Source of the DNA: Zhongshania aquatica
GTDB taxonomy: Bacteria > Pseudomonadota > Gammaproteobacteria > Pseudomonadales > Spongiibacteraceae
Length of the DNA stretch: 64,000 bases
NCBI RefSeq assembly: GCF_027257955.1
Contig: NZ_JANZNQ010000013.1
Coordinates: 1-64,000, forward strand
Direction of reading: 5' to 3'
Position numbers and translations under genes: made by a program. Shown piece after piece: positions 29,876 to 39,245 of the stretch. Position 1 is the stretch's first letter; each line of letters begins with the position of its first letter. Under the pieces are notes generated by a model. It had not been told where the DNA came from. It did not search any database and saw nothing but the letters and a program-made list of their open reading frames with translations.

Positions 29876-30538
29876 TTAACCGCCGACCTTGAGCCACTCT
29901 TTAATACTGTTTCCAATATCGACTATTTCCTCACCACAGACTTCGTGCTGCATCGGATAACTACGATATTTAGGCTTAAAGCCCATACTTTGTAAAATTT
30001 GATTAGCGGTATGTCCCATAGTTTCTGGCACCATTGGGTCTTGAGTGCCATGAAAAATATGAATAGGTAGAGCCTTGTTCGCATCGGAGAGCGTCACTTC
30101 CTTAGCGGTTGCGAAATACGTAGACATCGTTAGCAAACCCGCCAAGGGTTTTGGATAAGAAAGCGCGGCGTGATACGCCACGGCACCGCCCTGGCTAAAA
30201 CCTGCTAATACGATACGACTGCTATCTATACCGGCATCCAATTCCCGTTGAATTAACTCTCCGACCGCCGCGGACGAAGCTTGTATCTGAACTAGGTCAA
30301 TCTCGCGCTCTATCGACATCGCAAGAATGTCATACCACCCCGGCATCACCATTCCGCCGTTAATGGTAATCGGTATTTCTGGCGCATGAGGGAATATAAA
30401 ACGAATACCATGATTGTCTGGCAGACCAAGATGAGGAACCACAGGCACAAAATCATGGCCACTGGCACCCAAGCCGTGCAGCCAAATCACAGCGGCATCT
30501 GGCGCGCCTTTGGGCTCTAATATTTCACATTTGAGCAA
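29876..30538 (-). CDS. Carboxylesterase / lysophospholipase-like alpha/beta hydrolase
   Basis: 220 residues of the acyl-protein-thioesterase/carboxylesterase II type. Seen: WLHGLGASGHDF (oxyanion region), the nucleophile Ser in GFSQGGAVAYHAA (about 116), Asp in GTQDPMVP (about 168) and His in MQHEVCGEE (about 199). It hydrolyses short- to medium-chain esters in the cytosol. The start is TTG at 30538 with GGAG eight bases upstream. A mobile cassette begins 85 bases upstream of the start, and its 3' end directly joins a hydrolase remnant. Confidence 0.92.
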   Translation of the reverse strand: MLKCEILEPKGAPDAAVIWLHGLGASGHDFVPVVPHLGLPDNHGIRFIFPHAPEIPITINGGMVMPGWYDILAMSIEREIDLVQIQASSAAVGELIQRELDAGIDSSRIVLAGFSQGGAVAYHAALSYPKPLAGLLTMSTYFATAKEVTLSDANKALPIHIFHGTQDPMVPETMGHTANQILQSMGFKPKYRSYPMQHEVCGEEIVDIGNSIKEWLKVGG

Positions 30539-30623
30539 GGCTTTAACTCCTTAGCGATTATAAATTGAGGGCACAATATCATGTTCTGTCATCCCCAGTC
30601 TTTCGTCGAATATGCTGGCCATA

Positions 30624-30641
30624 TGTCGATTCACCCATAAA
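30624..30641 (+). repeat. Left terminal inverted repeat
   Basis: TGTCGATTCACCCATAAA, differing at one base from the reverse complement of 36368-36385. Preceded by CATA. Confidence 0.65.
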
Positions 30642-30648
30642 ATGTCCG

Positions 30649-30670
30649 TTTTGGCCAGCTTATGGTAAAA
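30649..30670 (+). repeat. Internal end repeat, left side
   Basis: TTTTGGCCA followed by GCTTATGG and TAAAA; related copies are at 36271-36293 and 36334-36355 near the right end. Subterminal repeats of this kind are expected transposase-binding sites. Confidence 0.5.
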
Positions 30671-30787
30671 AGCAATATTGCCATGCGCAAGTAGGGTCGG
30701 TAGTTGGTAATAAGCGGAAATTCGATTTATATTTACTACAAATACTCATCTATCCTTTTTAAACCACCTAATGATTAGTAAGTTAAA

Positions 30788-33700
30788 CTATGCAAGTAAC
30801 GCCTCTAGCTCTGTGACCCCATGATTAAGAAACCAATCCTGAACTGACAACACTCTATCGATAAAATCATCATCATCTGATAAATCGGCTTCTTGAAGAA
30901 GTAACTTTAGCGTCGTGAGCAGCGCATCAGGGCGGTGAAAATAAATGTGGCTAGGTAGGTCAGATAAACGCTCTACCAAATCTTCCAATACTTCTAGGAT
31001 GCTAATGGGCTCAGACGCAACGTTTTTTTCTAACCAATTAAATGTGCTGTCGATTTCTCGAACATGCTCTATCGGCGCTTTAGCAATGAACAACTTGATC
31101 AAAGAAAAAGGCACAAATCTTATTTGGTCCTGATTATCCAGAGAACGTTCAAATTCAGTAAAAACTGATTTTGATGTATCAGTTTGCATCAAACGAGATA
31201 AACCCTCTATACAAACTGACGAGCTTTTGGTGCAGTTTAGATTTGCAACGAATACCTGCCCGATGCCTTCCACAACGGCCTCATTACGTTCATGAACGCC
31301 TTCCCAGAGCTCATCTTCATCCATATGACCTGATAGAAAAGAGAGTGTAGCCAAGCGTCCCCAAGCAGCAGAGCTTTTCTCATCATCAACCGTCTTAAGA
31401 AGCTCTATATAAGGTTTAACGCTGTCAAAGTGGGAGTGATATTGATAATACAGAGTTCTCTCCAAGTGCTTTATTAATCTCGGTTTTGCACTTGTAACCA
31501 GCAGGTTAACTAATCTCCAGCCTAGATCAGCCTCTTTACTATGAAAATAAGGAAACCTTCGGAGAAAAGTTGCACGCACTACGATTGAAGGATCTTTTGC
31601 ATAGCGGATAAGTAACTGCTGTAGCTCGTCCGTTACTGGTTTTCCCCTATCCAGGCGGTCGTTGCATATCATCAATAAGGTTTCAGCGGCAGTTCCACGA
31701 ACAGAGTTAATTCCGGCATTAATAAGGCTATGTGCCTCTTCATCCTTTTCAGGTTCCGGGCTTGGGTGCAAACCTAGCCGCCATAATTGGAAATAAATCC
31801 TTTCAAGTGATTGATCGTCATCTAAAACTGTACCGCAAGCTTCGATAGCTCTGGAGGAAGTATATCCACGGTAGTCATCGCCACAGTACTGCTCAACTAA
31901 ATCCAGTACAGTTTTCGCAAGCATGTTTCCCTCAGGTAAAGGGTCAATAGCTTTCCAGTTTGAATTACTGAGATTTCCAAAGCGACACCTTAAATGAGAT
32001 GCTAGACCATCAATAATTGAATAAATGTAACTGGTAGATAAAGAGGAACGATCAATCATTGGAATTAGCGGAACAAAATGCATTGGCACCCACGATGCTG
32101 CGGTGCTTAAAGCGCCATTCAAGCTCTCTCGTCCACCGACAAGGCCCTCTGAAAGCCTGACACCCCATCCATCATATTCATTATAATGACGAAATAGTTT
32201 AATCAGCGTTATATGGTTTAATTCGATTAATTTTTCTGAAGATACTGGAGACCGCACCATTCCGCCGCTGGCACCGATTGATGGTTCAGGAAGAATAGCG
32301 CCATACGCCTTTTCACATTTTCCAAAGAAATCATTCAGTTCAGGCAGTCTGTATATGGCGGGCACCCACGCTAAGTGTTGATATATATTCCGCTCTATCC
32401 AGTCATATCCATCCTCTAGATCATCATACAATCCTATAAGTAATCGTTGATGTTGCTCCTGTGCTGTGTGAGATATATAGGGGTAAGCCCTTGACGCCAG
32501 CATTCCTAATTCATATTCCATATGGCCATAGCGCAAAAGCTCACTGTCTATAAGCTGGCCTTCTATTCCTTCAATATGGTCTGGGATATTAAATAAATAT
32601 GTTTCGCATAATAAATAACGTACACCTAACTCTCGACTTACTCGCAAGCGAGTTTCAAATTCTTTCCAACGAGGGTCATTGCTCTGCGCCCTAATTTTCA
32701 TTGCTGATTCAACGGCATCTAAAAATTCGTGAATTGAATCGTGCGGCAGCATATCGTAGTTTGTATGACGCTGATTGTAGGATGTTGCATCTAACAGGTT
32801 GGACTCGAACGGATAATGATCGTCCTCGGGTACAAATCCCTGAGAAAATTGCAGTATATACTCCATTGCACAACCAAATAGAATATCTGACTGTTTTAGT
32901 CGGTTCTCTAAATATCCTTCATTCAAAAGATCGTGCCGTTGGCAGTTGAGCTTTAACTCCCGACCACGACGAATTTCAGCAATGGGTTCCGCATCACGGA
33001 TAATGTATCGCCACAATAACTCGTCACCATCCCCCGTCGCGTCAACATACTGGCAGATCGCGCGACCAACATCATCTCGTTCACCCTCATTGGCAGATAA
33101 AAGTTTCTCTAAAAGTAGGCCAACTCCGGGAGCATCCCACTTTTTTAGCTTTCTGATATCTGATGATATAGACCAAACTAAATTATCAATTGGTAACCAC
33201 CGCTCATCAAGAGCACGATTCCAAATCGCAATTATCCATTCCTCATAACCATCCAAAAACTGTGAAAAATAGCGTAGAACAACACCAACGCTATCCCCTA
33301 AAGAGGATATATTAGCCGTCGACAACCAGTGATTATGTAGCAATAAAAACCAATCCCTTCCATTAGCCCTGTCGAGAAACCGGCTAAATATAGTTGGTAG
33401 TTTTGACGACAACACCGATATGATCGCAAGGTCATCCTCTCTTGCGGCCATTTCTGCCAAAGTCTCAATAGCCAACCTCTTTAAGTGCATTGAAATATTG
33501 TCGTCTAATAAAAATTGACGCAGTTGTTTTGTAAATTGGTCTGGCTGATTTGATCTAAGTGTTAGGATAAATGCTCTAACAGCGGGCCTAATAAAGGGCA
33601 GCTGAGGCTGTGAGGTGACAAACCGTTTCAAGTCCACACCATTTACCTGAGCCTGTCGGATACGAAGTGCATCAGCCAGCGTCTGATGACTGAACATCAA

Positions 33701-35311
33701 TTGATGAGGGCTAACCTCAGCAATCACTTCTTGGCTTAGTAAGCGCTGTAATTGTTGAGGGTTGACGCCCAGTAGGTTTCTTGGGAATTTATAACTGCGT
33801 TGTGCCAGCAAGCCAACAGCAATATTTTGAAGTGCCTCCACAACTTCAGCGCCTAGGTATTCGTCGTTCTCTATTAGCTCCCGAATGTATAGTTCGTAAA
33901 GGTCGTGCTCTTCAATGTCTGGCAGCCTCATTCCTCTCTGGATTAGCACATAAAACAGGCGCACATTCTGTGGAATCAGTAATAAGCCCTTCAACGTAGC
34001 ACTTATTTCATCGGGGTTAACTCCCCACTCAATTAACAGTGGTGCAATATCATCATTGAACGATAGAGGTTCAACCGTCACCGTTTCAGCCCATGACGCC
34101 TCACGTAACAAAGGGTCATATTGCGCATCAAAAGAACGACTAGCCGCAATCAATGTGATATTTGGAACAACGGAGAGACTTGCAATCAAACCAAGAAAAC
34201 ACCGGAGGCTTTTGTGGCTCCGCCCAACTGCTAGTACATCCAGTGAATCAATAATAACAACAAGACGGCACTTTCCTGCCAGATGTGCGCTCTGAGCAAT
34301 AAAGTTTGGCGGCAACCCAGACTCCACCAAGTCATTAAGTGAATCAATTGATGCGAAAAGATCACCTTTTATAAATAAGGTAGCAATATCAGTTTGGGCA
34401 TCCAAATATTCCATTAAATCCAACAAAATACATGTTTTTCCTCCACCGGCTATATCCTCTAATAACACCGAAGATACGCCTCTATGAACTGCGTCCGTTA
34501 ATAACTCAAGCTCAGATCGAATTATCTTAGCTCCACCAATGGTTCGGACCCACTGGCGTCCCTGTAATGAAAATTCTCGAAATGCCTCTATAACTACCTT
34601 TTCATTAAAACCAAGAACATGATAAATACCATGCCTTTCAAGCATACCAATAACAACTTGACGGTCTATCACAAATTGAGGGTCGCCTAATTTGCTATGC
34701 TGGCGATCAACATAATTATAAATAAGTTTAAGTGCAGTCTCTGACTGAGAAAAATTTGCATGTAGCAATCCAAGGCTAAGCCTTTGCCAGCCCTCAGAAG
34801 AATGGTGGTCTCCAATACCTATGCGTTTCACTAATGCAAATGCATTCGCCTGGTCGTTCTCCCACAATGTGGCGAGGTCACTCAAAGTATCCTTCTGCCT
34901 CTGCGGAGCTACTCTAAGAAAAGACTGGTAATCGGGATAAAGATTAGCTTCCTCGATGAGGCGCTGTAGTAAGTTAAATGGCGTTCGCGAATAAAAATGA
35001 AAGTCGCAATCAGCCTCCACAAGAAGTTGGTCTCTTGCAGAAATCAGCTCCTTCTTTAAAACAGTGTCCGTAAGTTTCCAGTATTGGTGATCAGTCTGAT
35101 TGACTTTGGCCTGGAGGAAGCGTTTATTACCATTGCTGAATAAAATGACGATATCATCACCATAAATGAGGTAATCCTCGTCAGGTAACGCGACTGCATC
35201 GACTTGAATGCCAGCAATATTCTCATCCATTAGCATCTCAACAACCCAATAAAGCGCTACGGACCGCTGATATGTATCCCCTCTATTTGAACGTATTCCC
35301 GCAAGACTCAT
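30788..35311 (-). CDS. Nuclease-STAND NTPase-repeat protein, probable Avs-like anti-phage effector
   Basis: 1507 residues. Residues 1 to about 150 resemble a Cap4/DUF4297-type PD-(D/E)xK nuclease: GDTYQRSVALYWV, an acidic pair in YGDDIV (D52/D53) and FLQAK with Q67-x-K69. A P-loop NTPase follows (about 250-560): Walker A DIAGGGKT (about 286-293), Walker B VVIIDSLD (D355, D358) and an arginine in LIAASR (392). The rest, about 560-1507, is helical and repeat-like, as in sensor arms of STAND proteins. This order (nuclease, STAND ATPase, repeat sensor) is that of AVAST/Avs phage-sensing proteins such as Avs2; homology at that level is my judgement by eye. It is the main cargo of the cassette and lies downstream of the RDD gene on the same strand. 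Confidence 0.75.
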   Translation of the reverse strand: MSLAGIRSNRGDTYQRSVALYWVVEMLMDENIAGIQVDAVALPDEDYLIYGDDIVILFSNGNKRFLQAKVNQTDHQYWKLTDTVLKKELISARDQLLVEADCDFHFYSRTPFNLLQRLIEEANLYPDYQSFLRVAPQRQKDTLSDLATLWENDQANAFALVKRIGIGDHHSSEGWQRLSLGLLHANFSQSETALKLIYNYVDRQHSKLGDPQFVIDRQVVIGMLERHGIYHVLGFNEKVVIEAFREFSLQGRQWVRTIGGAKIIRSELELLTDAVHRGVSSVLLEDIAGGGKTCILLDLMEYLDAQTDIATLFIKGDLFASIDSLNDLVESGLPPNFIAQSAHLAGKCRLVVIIDSLDVLAVGRSHKSLRCFLGLIASLSVVPNITLIAASRSFDAQYDPLLREASWAETVTVEPLSFNDDIAPLLIEWGVNPDEISATLKGLLLIPQNVRLFYVLIQRGMRLPDIEEHDLYELYIRELIENDEYLGAEVVEALQNIAVGLLAQRSYKFPRNLLGVNPQQLQRLLSQEVIAEVSPHQLMFSHQTLADALRIRQAQVNGVDLKRFVTSQPQLPFIRPAVRAFILTLRSNQPDQFTKQLRQFLLDDNISMHLKRLAIETLAEMAAREDDLAIISVLSSKLPTIFSRFLDRANGRDWFLLLHNHWLSTANISSLGDSVGVVLRYFSQFLDGYEEWIIAIWNRALDERWLPIDNLVWSISSDIRKLKKWDAPGVGLLLEKLLSANEGERDDVGRAICQYVDATGDGDELLWRYIIRDAEPIAEIRRGRELKLNCQRHDLLNEGYLENRLKQSDILFGCAMEYILQFSQGFVPEDDHYPFESNLLDATSYNQRHTNYDMLPHDSIHEFLDAVESAMKIRAQSNDPRWKEFETRLRVSRELGVRYLLCETYLFNIPDHIEGIEGQLIDSELLRYGHMEYELGMLASRAYPYISHTAQEQHQRLLIGLYDDLEDGYDWIERNIYQHLAWVPAIYRLPELNDFFGKCEKAYGAILPEPSIGASGGMVRSPVSSEKLIELNHITLIKLFRHYNEYDGWGVRLSEGLVGGRESLNGALSTAASWVPMHFVPLIPMIDRSSLSTSYIYSIIDGLASHLRCRFGNLSNSNWKAIDPLPEGNMLAKTVLDLVEQYCGDDYRGYTSSRAIEACGTVLDDDQSLERIYFQLWRLGLHPSPEPEKDEEAHSLINAGINSVRGTAAETLLMICNDRLDRGKPVTDELQQLLIRYAKDPSIVVRATFLRRFPYFHSKEADLGWRLVNLLVTSAKPRLIKHLERTLYYQYHSHFDSVKPYIELLKTVDDEKSSAAWGRLATLSFLSGHMDEDELWEGVHERNEAVVEGIGQVFVANLNCTKSSSVCIEGLSRLMQTDTSKSVFTEFERSLDNQDQIRFVPFSLIKLFIAKAPIEHVREIDSTFNWLEKNVASEPISILEVLEDLVERLSDLPSHIYFHRPDALLTTLKLLLQEADLSDDDDFIDRVLSVQDWFLNHGVTELEALLA

Positions 35312-35337
35312 ACCTTTAAATTAACCTCCATGGTTTA

Positions 35338-35526
35338 ATGGTGGAGCTATTATTCAGGCACAGCAATTTTATGTTTGTAATTTTCAAGACGTCACTAGTA
35401 CGAAGAATTTTTATGTCCGCTTTGGGTCGATACCAGTCTAGCGCAGAACTCAAACGTATGACGGCTTTTGTGACGACACTGTCATATTACTTGCCTAAAG
35501 CCATATTTTCTGAGCCAGAAAGGTAA
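35338..35526 (+). pseudogene. Possible transposase remnant (IS91-like)
   Basis: A 62-codon frame in the gap between the NTPase and RDD genes. Its central segment RRIFMSAL and its end YYLPKAIFSEPE loosely recall the part of IS91-type transposases around the conserved VVYAKxPF motif. It ends abruptly and lacks catalytic residues. It could equally be chance. Confidence 0.25.
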
Positions 35527-35563
35527 TCCCCAAATAAATTGCTTCTTTGAACAAGGCCACTGA

Positions 35564-36079
35564 TTAAATTCGATATACGATAGTCTTACCTATGAAATCA
35601 TGAAGCGCTCGACACTGGTAACTTGAGAAAAATGTCATTATATCGATGACAACCCATAAAGTTGCCCCCCAGTCGAACCACCGAGCGATTGGAATAAGCT
35701 CAGACGCATTATGGGGAGTTGCACCCGAGTAAATTGCGCTCGCCGATAACAAAGCAATCACTACTGAGAAGCCCAGCGGAACGATTTCTCTTAGCAAAGC
35801 TTGACGATAATTCATGGAGCCTCCATGTATTGACCTTGCTTTCACCTTCAGAAGCATTTTCCCTAGTGTTTGGCCATACTTACCATGCATCACTATCCTA
35901 TAAAGACTGTAACTAACCGCACCGAATAAAAAATACACCCCAAAAACTAGATTTTTAGAATTATTGCCTTCGTAGATAAAGTCCTCAAGAAACATTAACG
36001 GAAAGAACAATAATCCATCAACTAACAACGCCCAAAAACGCGGCCAAAAAGTATCATATTGATGATCCGTCGATGTCAT
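35564..36079 (-). CDS. RDD family membrane protein
   Basis: 171 residues from ATG 36077-36079 (AAGGCG about nine bases upstream; a TTG at 36118 would add 13). It has the RDD pattern: FWPRFWALLVDGLLFFP at the N-terminus, with Arg and Asp placed in the first helix, a YGQTLGKMLLKVK segment after helix 2 and ALHDFIGKTIVYRI at the end. Three or four membrane helices. The function is unknown; RDD proteins are proposed ion transporters. It lies upstream of the NTPase gene on the same strand inside the cassette, so it may be an accessory part of the same defence unit. Confidence 0.85.
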   Translation of the reverse strand: MTSTDHQYDTFWPRFWALLVDGLLFFPLMFLEDFIYEGNNSKNLVFGVYFLFGAVSYSLYRIVMHGKYGQTLGKMLLKVKARSIHGGSMNYRQALLREIVPLGFSVVIALLSASAIYSGATPHNASELIPIARWFDWGATLWVVIDIMTFFSSYQCRALHDFIGKTIVYRI

Positions 36080-36118
36080 ATATTTTAACGCCTTATTTGA
36101 TATACAGACTAAAGACAA

Positions 36119-36247
36119 CTAATTATAAGCTTCTTGACCGTCTTTCCCCGCTAGTACTCGTACCATAGCAATTGGATTGGATAATACGCGGGTGTATGCA
36201 GCCAAGGTATTAGCCTGCCCAGACTTTTTACGTCCGCTAATGTGACG
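36119..36247 (-). other. Short coding-like remnant inside the cassette
   Basis: Just upstream of the RDD gene, a 42-codon open frame between TAA (36248-36250) and TAG (36119-36121) has protein-like composition (GQANTLAAYTRVLSNPIAMV) but no start codon context. It may be the tail of a gene lost when the cassette formed. The rest of 36080-36627 holds the right-end repeats and no gene. Confidence 0.25.
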
Positions 36248-36270
36248 TTACGACCACAATATGGGTGAAC

Positions 36271-36355
36271 TCGCGGCCATGTTATGGGTAAAACCCCGAT
36301 TGGAACTTAAAGTTATACCGCCAAGAGCGCTCCTTTTGGCCATCTTGTGGCTCAA
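36271..36355 (+). repeat. Internal end repeats, right side (two copies)
   Basis: Copy one, 36271-36293, has GGCCATGTTATGGGTAAAA; copy two, 36334-36355, has TTTTGGCCATCTTGTGG. An extra ATGGGTGAA, the core of the terminal repeat, lies at 36261-36269. They match the subterminal repeat at 30649-30670. Confidence 0.5.
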
Positions 36356-36367
36356 TTTCCCTGCTAG

Positions 36368-36385
36368 TTTATGGGTGAATCAACA
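36368..36385 (-). repeat. Right terminal inverted repeat
   Basis: TTTATGGGTGAATCAACA on the plus strand, the inverse of the left end with one mismatch. Followed directly by CATA (36386-36389). Confidence 0.65.
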
Positions 36386-36627
36386 CATATTGCGGCGCTG
36401 TGCTTTCGACACCGAGAGCTATTCTGTAAAGGAAACAATGCGAGCCCACATAAAAAAAAGCCAGGAATTCATACCTAGTACCTTAGTACGATGCATTTTT
36501 ATCGCTATGCATGTAAAACCGTACCAAAGCGTCAACAAACCAAGTGTATGTGGGCACCACCACATAAAACAATCTCGGTATCGGACATAACAATGTCTAT
36601 CAGCCAACACTTTTTTACATACACCAC

Positions 36628-37320
36628 GTGTTTTGTATAAGAATATACAGAACACATCGTATCTCCAGAATATTACTTTGGCTGCTTCTTGCCGCCTTAA
36701 CGTCCCTAAATGTCTTCGGCATTGCGAATTTTGAACAATTTGAACGTCTAGCGTCTTCTCAATATGGCGCAAACGCAAATTCACTCGCTGTTGAATTCAC
36801 TCGCCTCCTTGTAAATCTTAGTGACGCTGACACCGACACAAAACTAAAAATGGTCAATGATTTCTTCAACGACAACATCCAGTTTAGAGATGACATTAGT
36901 CTTTGGGGAGAAAATGACTATTGGGCTTCGCCGTTAGAAACTATAGGTAAAGGCGCTGGCGATTGTGAGGATTTCACCATTGCTAAGTTTGTGGCTTTGA
37001 GATTACTAGGCATACCTTTAGATAAACTGAGACTAACCTATGTAAAGGCGAGGATTGGCGCCGCATCCAGCAAAATAAGTCAGGCGCATATGGTGCTTAG
37101 CTACTACGAGTCGCCAGCGGCGACCCCACTTATTCTGGACAATTTATACCCGAACATTCGGCCAGCCAGCCAACGTCCTGATTTAACACCCGTATTTGGC
37201 TTCAATAGTGAGCGCTTATGGGTTGGTAACGCAGCGCAAGCAAGTAGCTATGACCCGAAATCACGCTTATCACGCTGGCAAAAAACGTTAGCAAAAATTC
37301 ATGATGAAGGTTTGGATTAA
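36628..37320 (+). CDS. lapG: LapG-type periplasmic cysteine protease
   Basis: 230 residues of the bacterial transglutaminase-like cysteine protease family. A signal anchor (about 12-30) is followed by the catalytic Cys in GKGAGDCEDFTIAKFVAL (about 113), His in SQAHMVLSYY (about 152) and Asp in LILDNLYP (about 168). In Pseudomonas, LapG cleaves the N-terminus of the adhesin LapA and releases the cell from a biofilm; Ca2+ binding is expected near the acidic loops. It is followed 17 bases later by lapD. The GTG start is uncertain. Confidence 0.92.
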   Translation: MFCIRIYRTHRISRILLWLLLAALTSLNVFGIANFEQFERLASSQYGANANSLAVEFTRLLVNLSDADTDTKLKMVNDFFNDNIQFRDDISLWGENDYWASPLETIGKGAGDCEDFTIAKFVALRLLGIPLDKLRLTYVKARIGAASSKISQAHMVLSYYESPAATPLILDNLYPNIRPASQRPDLTPVFGFNSERLWVGNAAQASSYDPKSRLSRWQKTLAKIHDEGLD

Positions 37321-37337
37321 GACCTTAGGAAACGACG

Positions 37338-39245
37338 ATGTCACTATATAAACAACTATGGCTTTCGATTGCCATTTTAATGCTCTTGGCATTTCTTGGT
37401 AGTTTTGGTATCGGTACGTTAACCATAAAAAGTAATATGGAACGACAACTCCATATTAAAAACATAGATAACGCCAATAACTTAGCTTTAGCCGCGAGCC
37501 AACTTGCAGACGACCATACTATGGTAGAACTGCTAATAAGTGCTCAATTTGACAGCGGACACTATCAGCGACTTCGTTATTTAAGCCCTGAAGGTGAGAC
37601 TATAATAGAACTCACTCGGCCTCTCGCCACATCAATTCCGGCTCAGTGGTTCCAGCGTATCTTTAGTATTAAATCAGATGTCGCTGTTGCGTCAGTTCAA
37701 GCCGGATGGAAACAACTCGGTGAGATTGAGGTACAAAGTGATCCTAGCTTTGCTTATCAAGCAGTATGGAACACAGCTTTGAACTTGCTAATGTACTTCA
37801 CGGCTGCTGCCTTAGTCTTCGGCCTAATTGGTCACTTAATTCTTAAAGCTATCACCACCCCCCTGCACAGTGTTGTAGAACAATCCCATGCACTCAAAAA
37901 CCGTCGTTTTCTAACGGTATCCCTGCCTCGCACGCTGGAGTTTCGTGAACTTGTTATCGCAATGAATTCGCTAACCGATAGCATTAAGTATTTTTTTGAA
38001 GAAGAATCATCCCAATTAATTAAAATGCAATTAGAAAATCAAATAGACCCTATTACGGGGCTACATAGCCGGGAGCACTTCCTTATGCTGATGCGCCAAA
38101 GCCTAAGTAGCCTTGAAGCAAGTGATCATGGCAGTCTTGTTATATTTCGAATACACAATTTACAGGATCTTAATAGAAATGAAGGGCGAAGTATTGTCGA
38201 CTTACTTCTAAAACAATTTGGAGAATTACTCAGAAACCTATCGACAGAGCATGAACAATGGATTTCTGGACGTTTAAATGGATCTGATTTTGCGGTTCTA
38301 GCTCCCGATCAAAAATCCGCTGGCGCATTAGCAAAGGAAGTCTACTATGCCTTACTCGCCAAATTACAAGAATTCGATTTACAAGACGAAGTCATCATTC
38401 CCACTGCGGCACATCAGTATTACGCCAACGAAAGTATCGCACATACACTGAGCATAGTTGATCAAGCTCTCTGCTTAGCGGAGAGCAAGAGAGCCTCTAA
38501 CATTGAAATAACATATGACGATGAAAGTAGTAGTAGTATTAAGGACTCGAAATATTGGCAGAAAATAATCGACGACATTATTGACGGTAAGAAGCTAGAA
38601 ATAGATAGCGATACGGTACTTTCCCGTGACGGTCAGTTTCTTTACAGCAAATTAACATGCAGTCATGCGAATGGTGAAAATGCAATAAGCCGTCGTCAAC
38701 TATATACCTGGGTCGCTCGCCTTCAACGGGGGTTTCAGTTTGACCATGCAGCACTTGAAAAGATGTATACCGTTAACGATCAACTCAGACATCCTATTGC
38801 GTTTGCACCGTCACCAATCACGCTTAAATACTATGAAAGTAAATCGCATCTTCCAGATAATTTCGAACCTAGCTTCCCCGCCGGCACCTGCATTGAAATA
38901 CCAGAATATTTCGCTACGCAAAACTTTGCCGAGTTTAAGCGTATTTGCGAGCATCTACATGAAAAAAACTATCTTATCGGACTAACCGGCGCTGGCCTAC
39001 ATTTAGAAAACATGGCAAGTATTTTTGACTGTGGCATTGCCTTCATCACTCTGGACAGTACCATAACAATGGACATCCAAATTTCTGAGAGAAATCAAGT
39101 ATTAGCAAGATGTCTTGCCATTATGTTTCATAGTATTGGCACTAAAGTATACGCTGACGGCATTAAAACTCTGGAGCAATGGGATTTATTAATGAAACTT
39201 GGTATCGACGGTGGTTCTGGCCCGTTTGTCGATATAAAGTATTAG
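37338..39245 (+). CDS. lapD: LapD-type c-di-GMP receptor with degenerate GGDEF-EAL
   Basis: 635 residues: membrane helix 1 (about 8-30), a periplasmic LapD/MoxY output domain (about 31-150), helix 2 (about 153-175), a HAMP-like segment (about 178-230), a GGDEF-like domain (about 235-400) whose signature is changed to GRLNGSDF, and an EAL-like domain (about 410-635) without the EAL catalytic motif (VLSR-type as in LapD). Such degeneracy is normal for LapD, which binds c-di-GMP and sequesters LapG. Coupled to lapG; the adhesin and its type I exporter are not in the window. Confidence 0.92.
   Translation: MSLYKQLWLSIAILMLLAFLGSFGIGTLTIKSNMERQLHIKNIDNANNLALAASQLADDHTMVELLISAQFDSGHYQRLRYLSPEGETIIELTRPLATSIPAQWFQRIFSIKSDVAVASVQAGWKQLGEIEVQSDPSFAYQAVWNTALNLLMYFTAAALVFGLIGHLILKAITTPLHSVVEQSHALKNRRFLTVSLPRTLEFRELVIAMNSLTDSIKYFFEEESSQLIKMQLENQIDPITGLHSREHFLMLMRQSLSSLEASDHGSLVIFRIHNLQDLNRNEGRSIVDLLLKQFGELLRNLSTEHEQWISGRLNGSDFAVLAPDQKSAGALAKEVYYALLAKLQEFDLQDEVIIPTAAHQYYANESIAHTLSIVDQALCLAESKRASNIEITYDDESSSSIKDSKYWQKIIDDIIDGKKLEIDSDTVLSRDGQFLYSKLTCSHANGENAISRRQLYTWVARLQRGFQFDHAALEKMYTVNDQLRHPIAFAPSPITLKYYESKSHLPDNFEPSFPAGTCIEIPEYFATQNFAEFKRICEHLHEKNYLIGLTGAGLHLENMASIFDCGIAFITLDSTITMDIQISERNQVLARCLAIMFHSIGTKVYADGIKTLEQWDLLMKLGIDGGSGPFVDIKY

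Follow-up and report, generated by a model that had tools for sequence, protein, structure and literature searches.

The subject of this study is a 5,762-bp unit of Zhongshania aquatica (positions 30624–36385) that lies in the first 64,000 nucleotides of contig NZ_JANZNQ010000013.1, a stretch referred to as the window and numbered from 1 to 64,000. Our analysis indicates that it is quite probably a non-autonomous mobile unit belonging to a family of elements with asymmetric left-type (L) and right-type (R) ends, moved by a helper acting in trans. A preliminary description of the same DNA, made from its sequence, had proposed a transposase-less unit with ends of its own, and this is supported by target site duplications (TSDs), by empty sites of sister elements and by further copies of the ends. 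Genomes, contigs and loci are denoted below by G, C and L numbers.

Ends and Target Site Duplication of the Window Unit

The left end, TGTCGATTCACCCATAAA, begins at 30624 on the forward strand and its inverted partner, TGTTGATTCACCCATAAA, is read inward from 36385 on the reverse strand; 17 of the 18 bases are identical, and the tetranucleotide CATA stands directly outside either end, as the preliminary description had reported. The subterminal repeats listed there are present as well: the box TTCACCCATAAnTTGGCC is found three times in the right end (7, 31 and 94, numbered inward) and once in the left end (7), where an inverted copy follows at 30. Open reading frames (ORFs), Pfam and tblastn agree that neither istA nor istB lies inside the unit.

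The 4-bp duplication claimed for the window unit holds as part of a set. Among 15 distinct two-ended elements (G250 and G251 have an identical site occupied by the same 10.8-kb element, which was counted once), the 4-bp TSD is exact in seven, namely the window unit (CATA), C47 (CGCC), L129 (TGGG), L131 (GTAG), L136 (CTTG), L184 (GGCT) and L186 (TTCA), and three of the four bases agree in six others (L072, L121, L123, L124, L127 and L128). By comparison, a control in which the right flank was shifted by 5 to 40 bases gave one exact agreement in 540 and 27 in 540 with at least three bases. The elements range from 0.25 to 10.8 kb in size, and in 13 of the 15 an L-type end is paired with an inverted R-type end, one end being below the threshold in L122 and in L131. 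Truncated copies (L237, L138, L180 and L126) and nested L ends (in L125 and L127) were also found. In five elements the start lies at most about 50 bp past the stop of a flanking ORF (ORF end/element start 5283/5330 in L122, 4652/4675 in L127, 8524/8532 in L128, 6645/6665 in L136 and 5655/5664 in L184), as if gene ends were preferred insertion targets.

Occurrence of the Ends in the Genome, the Genus and Beyond

Further copies of the ends exist around different cargo in the window's own genome and in other genomes of the genus, as sought in a check that the preliminary description had suggested. Exact or near copies in the own genome are a left end on C21, both ends on C47 and a right-end remnant on C17. 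The C47 copy is 252 bp long, holds no genes and splits a DNA-ligase-like gene; deletion of 252 + 4 bp restores one DNA-ligase-like reading frame of 382 codons. The C17 remnant adjoins vapBC-like and AbiE-like genes (L010 4645–7362) and an istB at the contig edge. The L-type end on C21 (C21:37801, L008 7802) has as neighbors, by ORF reading, a KfrA-like gene, a tyrosine recombinase and what resembles a mercury-detoxification cluster, and no partner for it was found in 27 kb. Outside the own genome, the right end of a Mrr-type element in G247 is 93% identical over 146 bp to that of the window unit.

In the samples searched, the ends are a feature of this genus, as follows from the genus, order and class searches together. 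A slightly looser exact pattern, TGTNGATTCACCCNTAA, was found in one of 369 genomes of the class, namely the window's own, and in none of the 368 others, so the case, considered in the preliminary description, of ends that are widespread without relation to one another is rejected. The 17-base pattern TGTYGATTCACCCATWA has 16 exact matches in 9 of the 18 genus genomes; at up to two mismatches it has 103 matches there and the backwards pattern 24, and one conserved site that is not an end, TGACGATTCCCCCATAA/TTA, accounts for at least 14 of the 103. Profiles built from 17 left-type and 13 right-type ends gave 89 and 94 forward matches on 1.54 Mb of loci as compared to none on the reversed copy (E 0.01), the forward matches not being independent because the loci searched overlap. 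The 252-bp copy matches 8 of 244 genomes of the order. Five belong to the genus, among them the window's own; the remaining three (G132, G100 and G015) match over 26–30 bp only, and these matches were rejected as ends, being palindrome only or chance. Searched against plasmids, neither the 252-bp copy nor the right end had a DNA match. Ten exact 17-mer matches in IMG/VR all proved on inspection to have no subterminal boxes and were taken as chance, and a 31-base left-end pattern found one stretch in genome_contigs, from a Zhongshania metagenome-assembled genome, on the same contig as C105 of the genus genome G251. Separately, about 60 bp with the palindrome CATAACCTGGCCAAAGCGGCCACATTATGG occur in three genomes, two of them from other families (L066 1501–1530, L067 1290–1319 and L077 7004–7033); this stretch adjoins tRNA-like sequence in L066 and L067 and is common with the inner part of the L-type end only.

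Empty Sites and Turnover of Cargo

To look for empty sites, left and right flank were fused into a single query for ten elements. The junction of L127 is spanned unbroken in G123, G251 and G248 and that of L136 in G247, G123 and G248, and in these relatives both neighboring genes are directly joined. Empty sites are thus seen for two sister elements, with three relatives each; the check suggested in the preliminary description, which concerned the site of the window unit itself, did not reveal one.

At one site, different cargo is even found in the same insertion. Two species, G246 and G244, share this insertion, with flanks and right end 92–95% identical, and differ in cargo: 3.5 kb with HigB, ExoD and GGDEF-EAL in G246, and 7.6 kb with an AbiE pair, a metallo-hydrolase-like protein and IS66 genes in G244. 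In G023 the same right end and right flank go with yet another, third cargo, which encodes among others a PADLOC PDC-S04 protein. Furthermore, the AbiE pair beside the C17 right-end remnant in the window's own genome and that of G244 are 87% identical over 1,817 bp.

Relation to IS21 and Proposed Source of the Transposase

IS21 elements are reported to begin with TG, to finish with CA and to have more than one box per end (PMC10122671). The ends of the present family likewise begin with TG, finish with CA and carry several boxes each. All 13 right ends have their first box at position 7; the second is at 31 in 11 of them and at 30 in the remaining two. A true IS21 element of G249 with a 7-bp TSD has its boxes at 7 and 31 in the right end and at 7 and 41 in the left end. 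In the left ends, an inverted second box, in some cases weak, is at position 30 in 16 of 17. TSDs of the IS21 family range from 4 to 8 bp, and the 4 bp of the present family fall within this range.

Following this, we propose that the window unit consists of cargo, one probable nuclease-STAND defense gene and an RDD protein, between an L-type and an R-type end, and that it would have been inserted by DDE-type transposition duplicating 4 bp, with the transposase coming from elsewhere in trans. An IS21-type IstA/IstB pair would be the best candidate because of the TG/CA ends, the several boxes and a right-end box spacing identical to that of the congener IS21, and a helper of this type acting in trans is on balance favored. 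Across the family, the shells of one L end and one R end would be kept while the cargo, mostly defense or toxin-antitoxin genes, changes. We infer that such units are mobile at the present day.

The search for a transposase gave no IS21-type protein in 19 element interiors (tblastn with 23 queries from 13 istA loci), while 7 of 7 control loci were matched; the sole match in the interiors was an IS110 transposase inside L123. This gene and the IS66 genes in L237 look like later insertions. In the own genome PF01695 had 6 and NF033546 12 matches, and NF033546 had 45 matches in 12 of the 18 genus genomes. The potential helpers considered were rejected: true IS21 copies of the genus with both ends (L162, L153, L163, L168, L164 and L169) have other ends, and the true IS21-type istB next to the right-end remnant on C17 sits in an element that also has other ends.

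Several observations tell against the proposed reading. Neither the own genome nor the genus yielded an autonomous element bounded by these ends, and among 38 genus istA loci, which include all 19 above the family cut-off, do not include 7 weak matches and are in part cut by contig ends, none has an end within three mismatches of the consensus; the autonomous IS21 with the same ends for which the preliminary description had suggested a search was not recovered. The six true IS21 copies of the genus leave TSDs of 5 or 7 bp, not 4, and where direct repeats are reported for IS21, the L end has its second box inverted. The description of the ends as IS21-like is therefore borne out by the termini, the boxes and the right-end spacing shared with the G249 element, but not by the TSD length or by any istA locus; the unit likely works like a non-autonomous IS21 passenger, whereas its identity as an IS21 element is not established because of the inverted L-end box, the 5- or 7-bp TSDs of the genus IS21 copies and the 38 istA loci without such an end. 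Moreover, no target duplication is seen in L122 (two of four bases) and L125 (one of four), and the family may no longer be moving, since many copies are truncated or mutated. At the empty sites of L127 and L136 the relatives are 66–80% identical per flank and lack about 10–20 bp at the junction, so that a single copy of the TSD is not visible. For the window copy, no empty site was found among the 17 other genus genomes: its left flank is present in 12 of the 17 and ceases to be syntenic near 30605, and the right flank (36386–37320) has no DNA match in any of them, for which reason an empty site is not demonstrable there.

Alternative Explanations

The elements might instead be decayed autonomous transposons, of IS21 type or Mu-/Tn7-like with a DDE transposase, which lost their transposase after insertion and whose cargo was originally their own. 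Four copies are indeed truncated, and the layout of the boxes also resembles that of Mu and Tn7 ends with several transposase sites, as far as an excerpt of the source describes them (PMC10122671). However, the 19 interiors hold no remnant of an IS21-type transposase, the window unit, L129 and L131 have intact ends and exact TSDs yet no transposase, and a minimal copy of 252 bp exists with both ends and an exact TSD, which makes decay improbable. An account in which the shells stay in place and homologous recombination at the ends, or deletion and nested insertion, exchanges their cargo, with little present transposition, draws on G246 and G244 with their shared flanks and right end and different cargo, on the third cargo in G023 and on the nested L ends in L125 and L127. 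Elements at different sites have TSDs of their own, which recombination does not make, and we regard such swapping as rather unlikely, although it may be true alongside transposition.

The same 252-bp element allows for a composite transposon, in which two complete elements of this type would flank the cargo. Against this, only 46 bp of it match at the left end of the window unit and 152 bp at the right end, and the plan of one L and one R end is kept in 13 of 15 elements, so a composite structure is highly improbable. As for a chance resemblance of short sequences around a defense gene in a variable region, the absence of the right flank itself from the 17 relatives shows that variability here has other causes too. 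This explanation is refuted, and its probability negligible, because the end is found in none of the 368 other genomes of the class, the profiles have no match in reversed sequence, and exact TSDs stand at 7 of 15 as compared to 1 of 540. A non-autonomous unit with asymmetric ends and a helper in trans is the reading adopted for the features in Table 1.

Table 1. Features of the window unit and its duplicated target site.
Feature	Position	Strand	Evidence
Left CATA, 4-bp target duplication	30620..30623		Sequence; TSD set of 15 elements
L-type end; first box 30630, inverted second box 30653	30624..30726	+	Profile match, 85.4 bits
1507-aa probable nuclease-STAND NTPase, candidate phage-defense gene	30788..35311	-	Full-length match to PDB 9n00
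D52/D53 ... Q67-x-K69, candidate nuclease motif in the 1507-aa protein	35102..35164	-	Alignment to 9n00
P-loop (Walker A) AGGGKTC, residues 288-294 of the 1507-aa protein	34430..34450	-	Sequence and alignment to 9n00
184-aa RDD-family membrane protein	35564..36118	-	Pfam PF06271, E 1.1e-17
R-type end, boxes 7, 31 and 94 inward from 36385	36256..36385	-	Profile match, 117.8 bits
Right CATA, 4-bp target duplication	36386..36389		Sequence; TSD set of 15 elements

Cargo Proteins and Neighbors of the Window Unit

The 1507-aa protein matches over its full length PDB entry 9n00, named "AAA family ATPase" (E 3e-164), and the same protein is present in 9n01 and 9yix; no paper describing this closest solved relative was found in the open-access literature. 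Its N-terminus matches PADLOC LmuA (residues 11–173, E 4.3e-6) and, with E 6e-4, HamA, both of which are nucleases, and these were the only matches in a PADLOC scan at E 0.1, which returned no Avs model. The Pfam scan gave no family at E 0.001, the match to Cap4_nuclease being weak (E 0.32), and no NCBIfam model was matched either. In the alignment, the protein shares with 9n00 the P-loop AGGGKTC and a DD...QCK-type stretch. P-loop (Walker A) and PD-(D/E)xK are general motif patterns, and by the latter the DD...Q-x-K stretch is predicted to be a catalytic nuclease site. General STAND defense proteins combine an effector at the N-terminus, a P-loop NTPase in the center and a repeat sensor at the C-terminus; of these parts, the alignment to 9n00 indicates the P-loop and a candidate nuclease motif. 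The label STAND is our reading of P-loop and architecture, with no family model behind it. Of the former designation as a nuclease-STAND NTPase, the part that stands is a probable defense gene, as the 9n00 and LmuA matches suggest, whereas the label itself is less firm in view of the Cap4_nuclease score and the lack of a STAND model. Judged by its sequence, the protein is likely a nuclease-STAND defense protein, and we infer an anti-phage function of the window cargo. No relative was confirmed in genome_contigs and none was found in phages. Plasmids gave eight records, five with at least 80% coverage, the best of 34% identity from Nostoc; the plasmid relatives near this level are cyanobacterial. 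The RDD membrane protein of the preliminary description is retained on the basis of its Pfam match.

On its left the window unit is bordered by a carboxylesterase-type gene (29876–30538). On its right, domain matches identify a peptidase gene (36628–37320) and a gene for a GGDEF/EAL protein (37338–39245), which we take to be LapG-like and LapD-like, respectively. This pair (36386–39245) may be a recent arrival itself, because its first gene has no DNA match in the 17 other genus genomes.

Cargo Across the Family

Eighteen gene-bearing elements, four of them with a truncated end, were considered, and 15 hold at least one defense or toxin-antitoxin domain. Besides the STAND-nuclease of the window these are YefM-YoeB (L072), YefM-YoeB with HigB (L127), HigB (L125), GmrSD_N with HEPN (L121), GmrSD_N (L128), a CAP12-type TIR (L123 and L126), Mrr (L124), HsdMSR with an OLD-like ATPase (L131), PDC-M22AB with LmuB similarity (L136), PDC-S04 (L138), an HNH effector-like protein with BrnT (L180), AbiTii (L184) and AbiE (L237). 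The three others are L122 (one ORF scanned, no family), L129 (redox genes) and L186 (a hydrolase). A comparison with flank genes points the same way. In this rough contrast, which counts families and not proteins, and in which some of the cargo ORFs are surely spurious, 226 PADLOC families were matched for 71 cargo ORFs as compared to 65 for 71 flank ORFs, the latter taken nearest first from 139 with one ORF of 1471 aa left out. Among the matches listed, those of the flanks come mainly from one DNA methyltransferase.

Integron genes were observed next to some ends. An integron integrase (TIGR02249, above the cut-off) lies within about 170 bp inside an R-type end in G248 (L189 5352–6362/L239 12352–13362), and another within about 170 bp inside an L-type end in G252 (L123 13426–14448); in G251, an end of the same kind at 1758 of L059 borders a stretch with one good attC-like site in a relaxed search. 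A strict attC search found none in the integron-bearing elements and the relaxed search yielded, besides the L059 site, one candidate each in two other elements, so the claim of an integron array is weak.

Relation to Known Systems and Implications

Mobile insertion cassettes (MICs) related to IS231 in Bacillus cereus are named as non-autonomous elements in an excerpt of one report (PMC3281130), and MICs carrying qnrD are the subject of another (PMC3913671). The window unit belongs to this known kind, as part of a genus-wide, defense-rich family with IS21-like ends. Like MICs, as far as the excerpts describe them, the present elements have cargo between IS-type ends, no transposase gene and presumed mobilization in trans, and their insertion is shown by TSDs and two sister empty sites. 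Unlike those MICs, they have multi-box ends resembling IS21, form a genus-wide family of 0.25 to 10.8 kb, include whole type I restriction systems and carry mostly defense or toxin-antitoxin cargo. With the istA/istB elements IS21 and IS5376 they share TG...CA, several boxes per end and, as in G249, a second right-end box at 31, but they differ in the missing istA/istB, in the 4-bp TSD as compared to 5 or 7 bp in IS21 of the genus, and in the inverted second box of the L end. The 252-bp copy is a classic short gene-less element with both ends in the manner of miniature inverted-repeat transposable elements, whereas other copies of the family carry genes. Tn402-like transposons carry integrons, and an integrase near a family end in G248 and G252 is reminiscent of them; here, however, no transposition genes were found, and each case is a single observation in a draft genome. 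As to the cargo, the window protein resembles Avs and Cap4-like nucleases (Lamassu LmuA and Hachiman HamA) in its N-terminal match, its P-loop and its size of about 1500 aa, and it differs from Avs in matching none of those models, with 9n00 as its closest solved relative.

Defense genes move often between bacteria, and little is understood of how single systems do so when no phage, plasmid or integrative island carries them; reports of IS21-type cassettes loaded with defense genes were not found in the open-access literature. We put forward tentatively, as a possibility that falls short of the better-supported reading of the window unit, that the genus possesses exchangeable "defense shells". 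Such shells, a conserved pair of asymmetric, IS21-like ends with no transposase of their own, would collect, carry and swap immune and toxin-antitoxin genes, and occasionally integrons, from site to site and from species to species, and either a transposase whose gene lies elsewhere or recombination of the shells would move them. Taken together, the elements provide a set of natural units with defined borders, TSDs and empty sites whose cargo consists mostly of immune genes. They raise the testable question of which transposase moves them, and they offer a handle for finding new defense genes in whatever lies between these ends.

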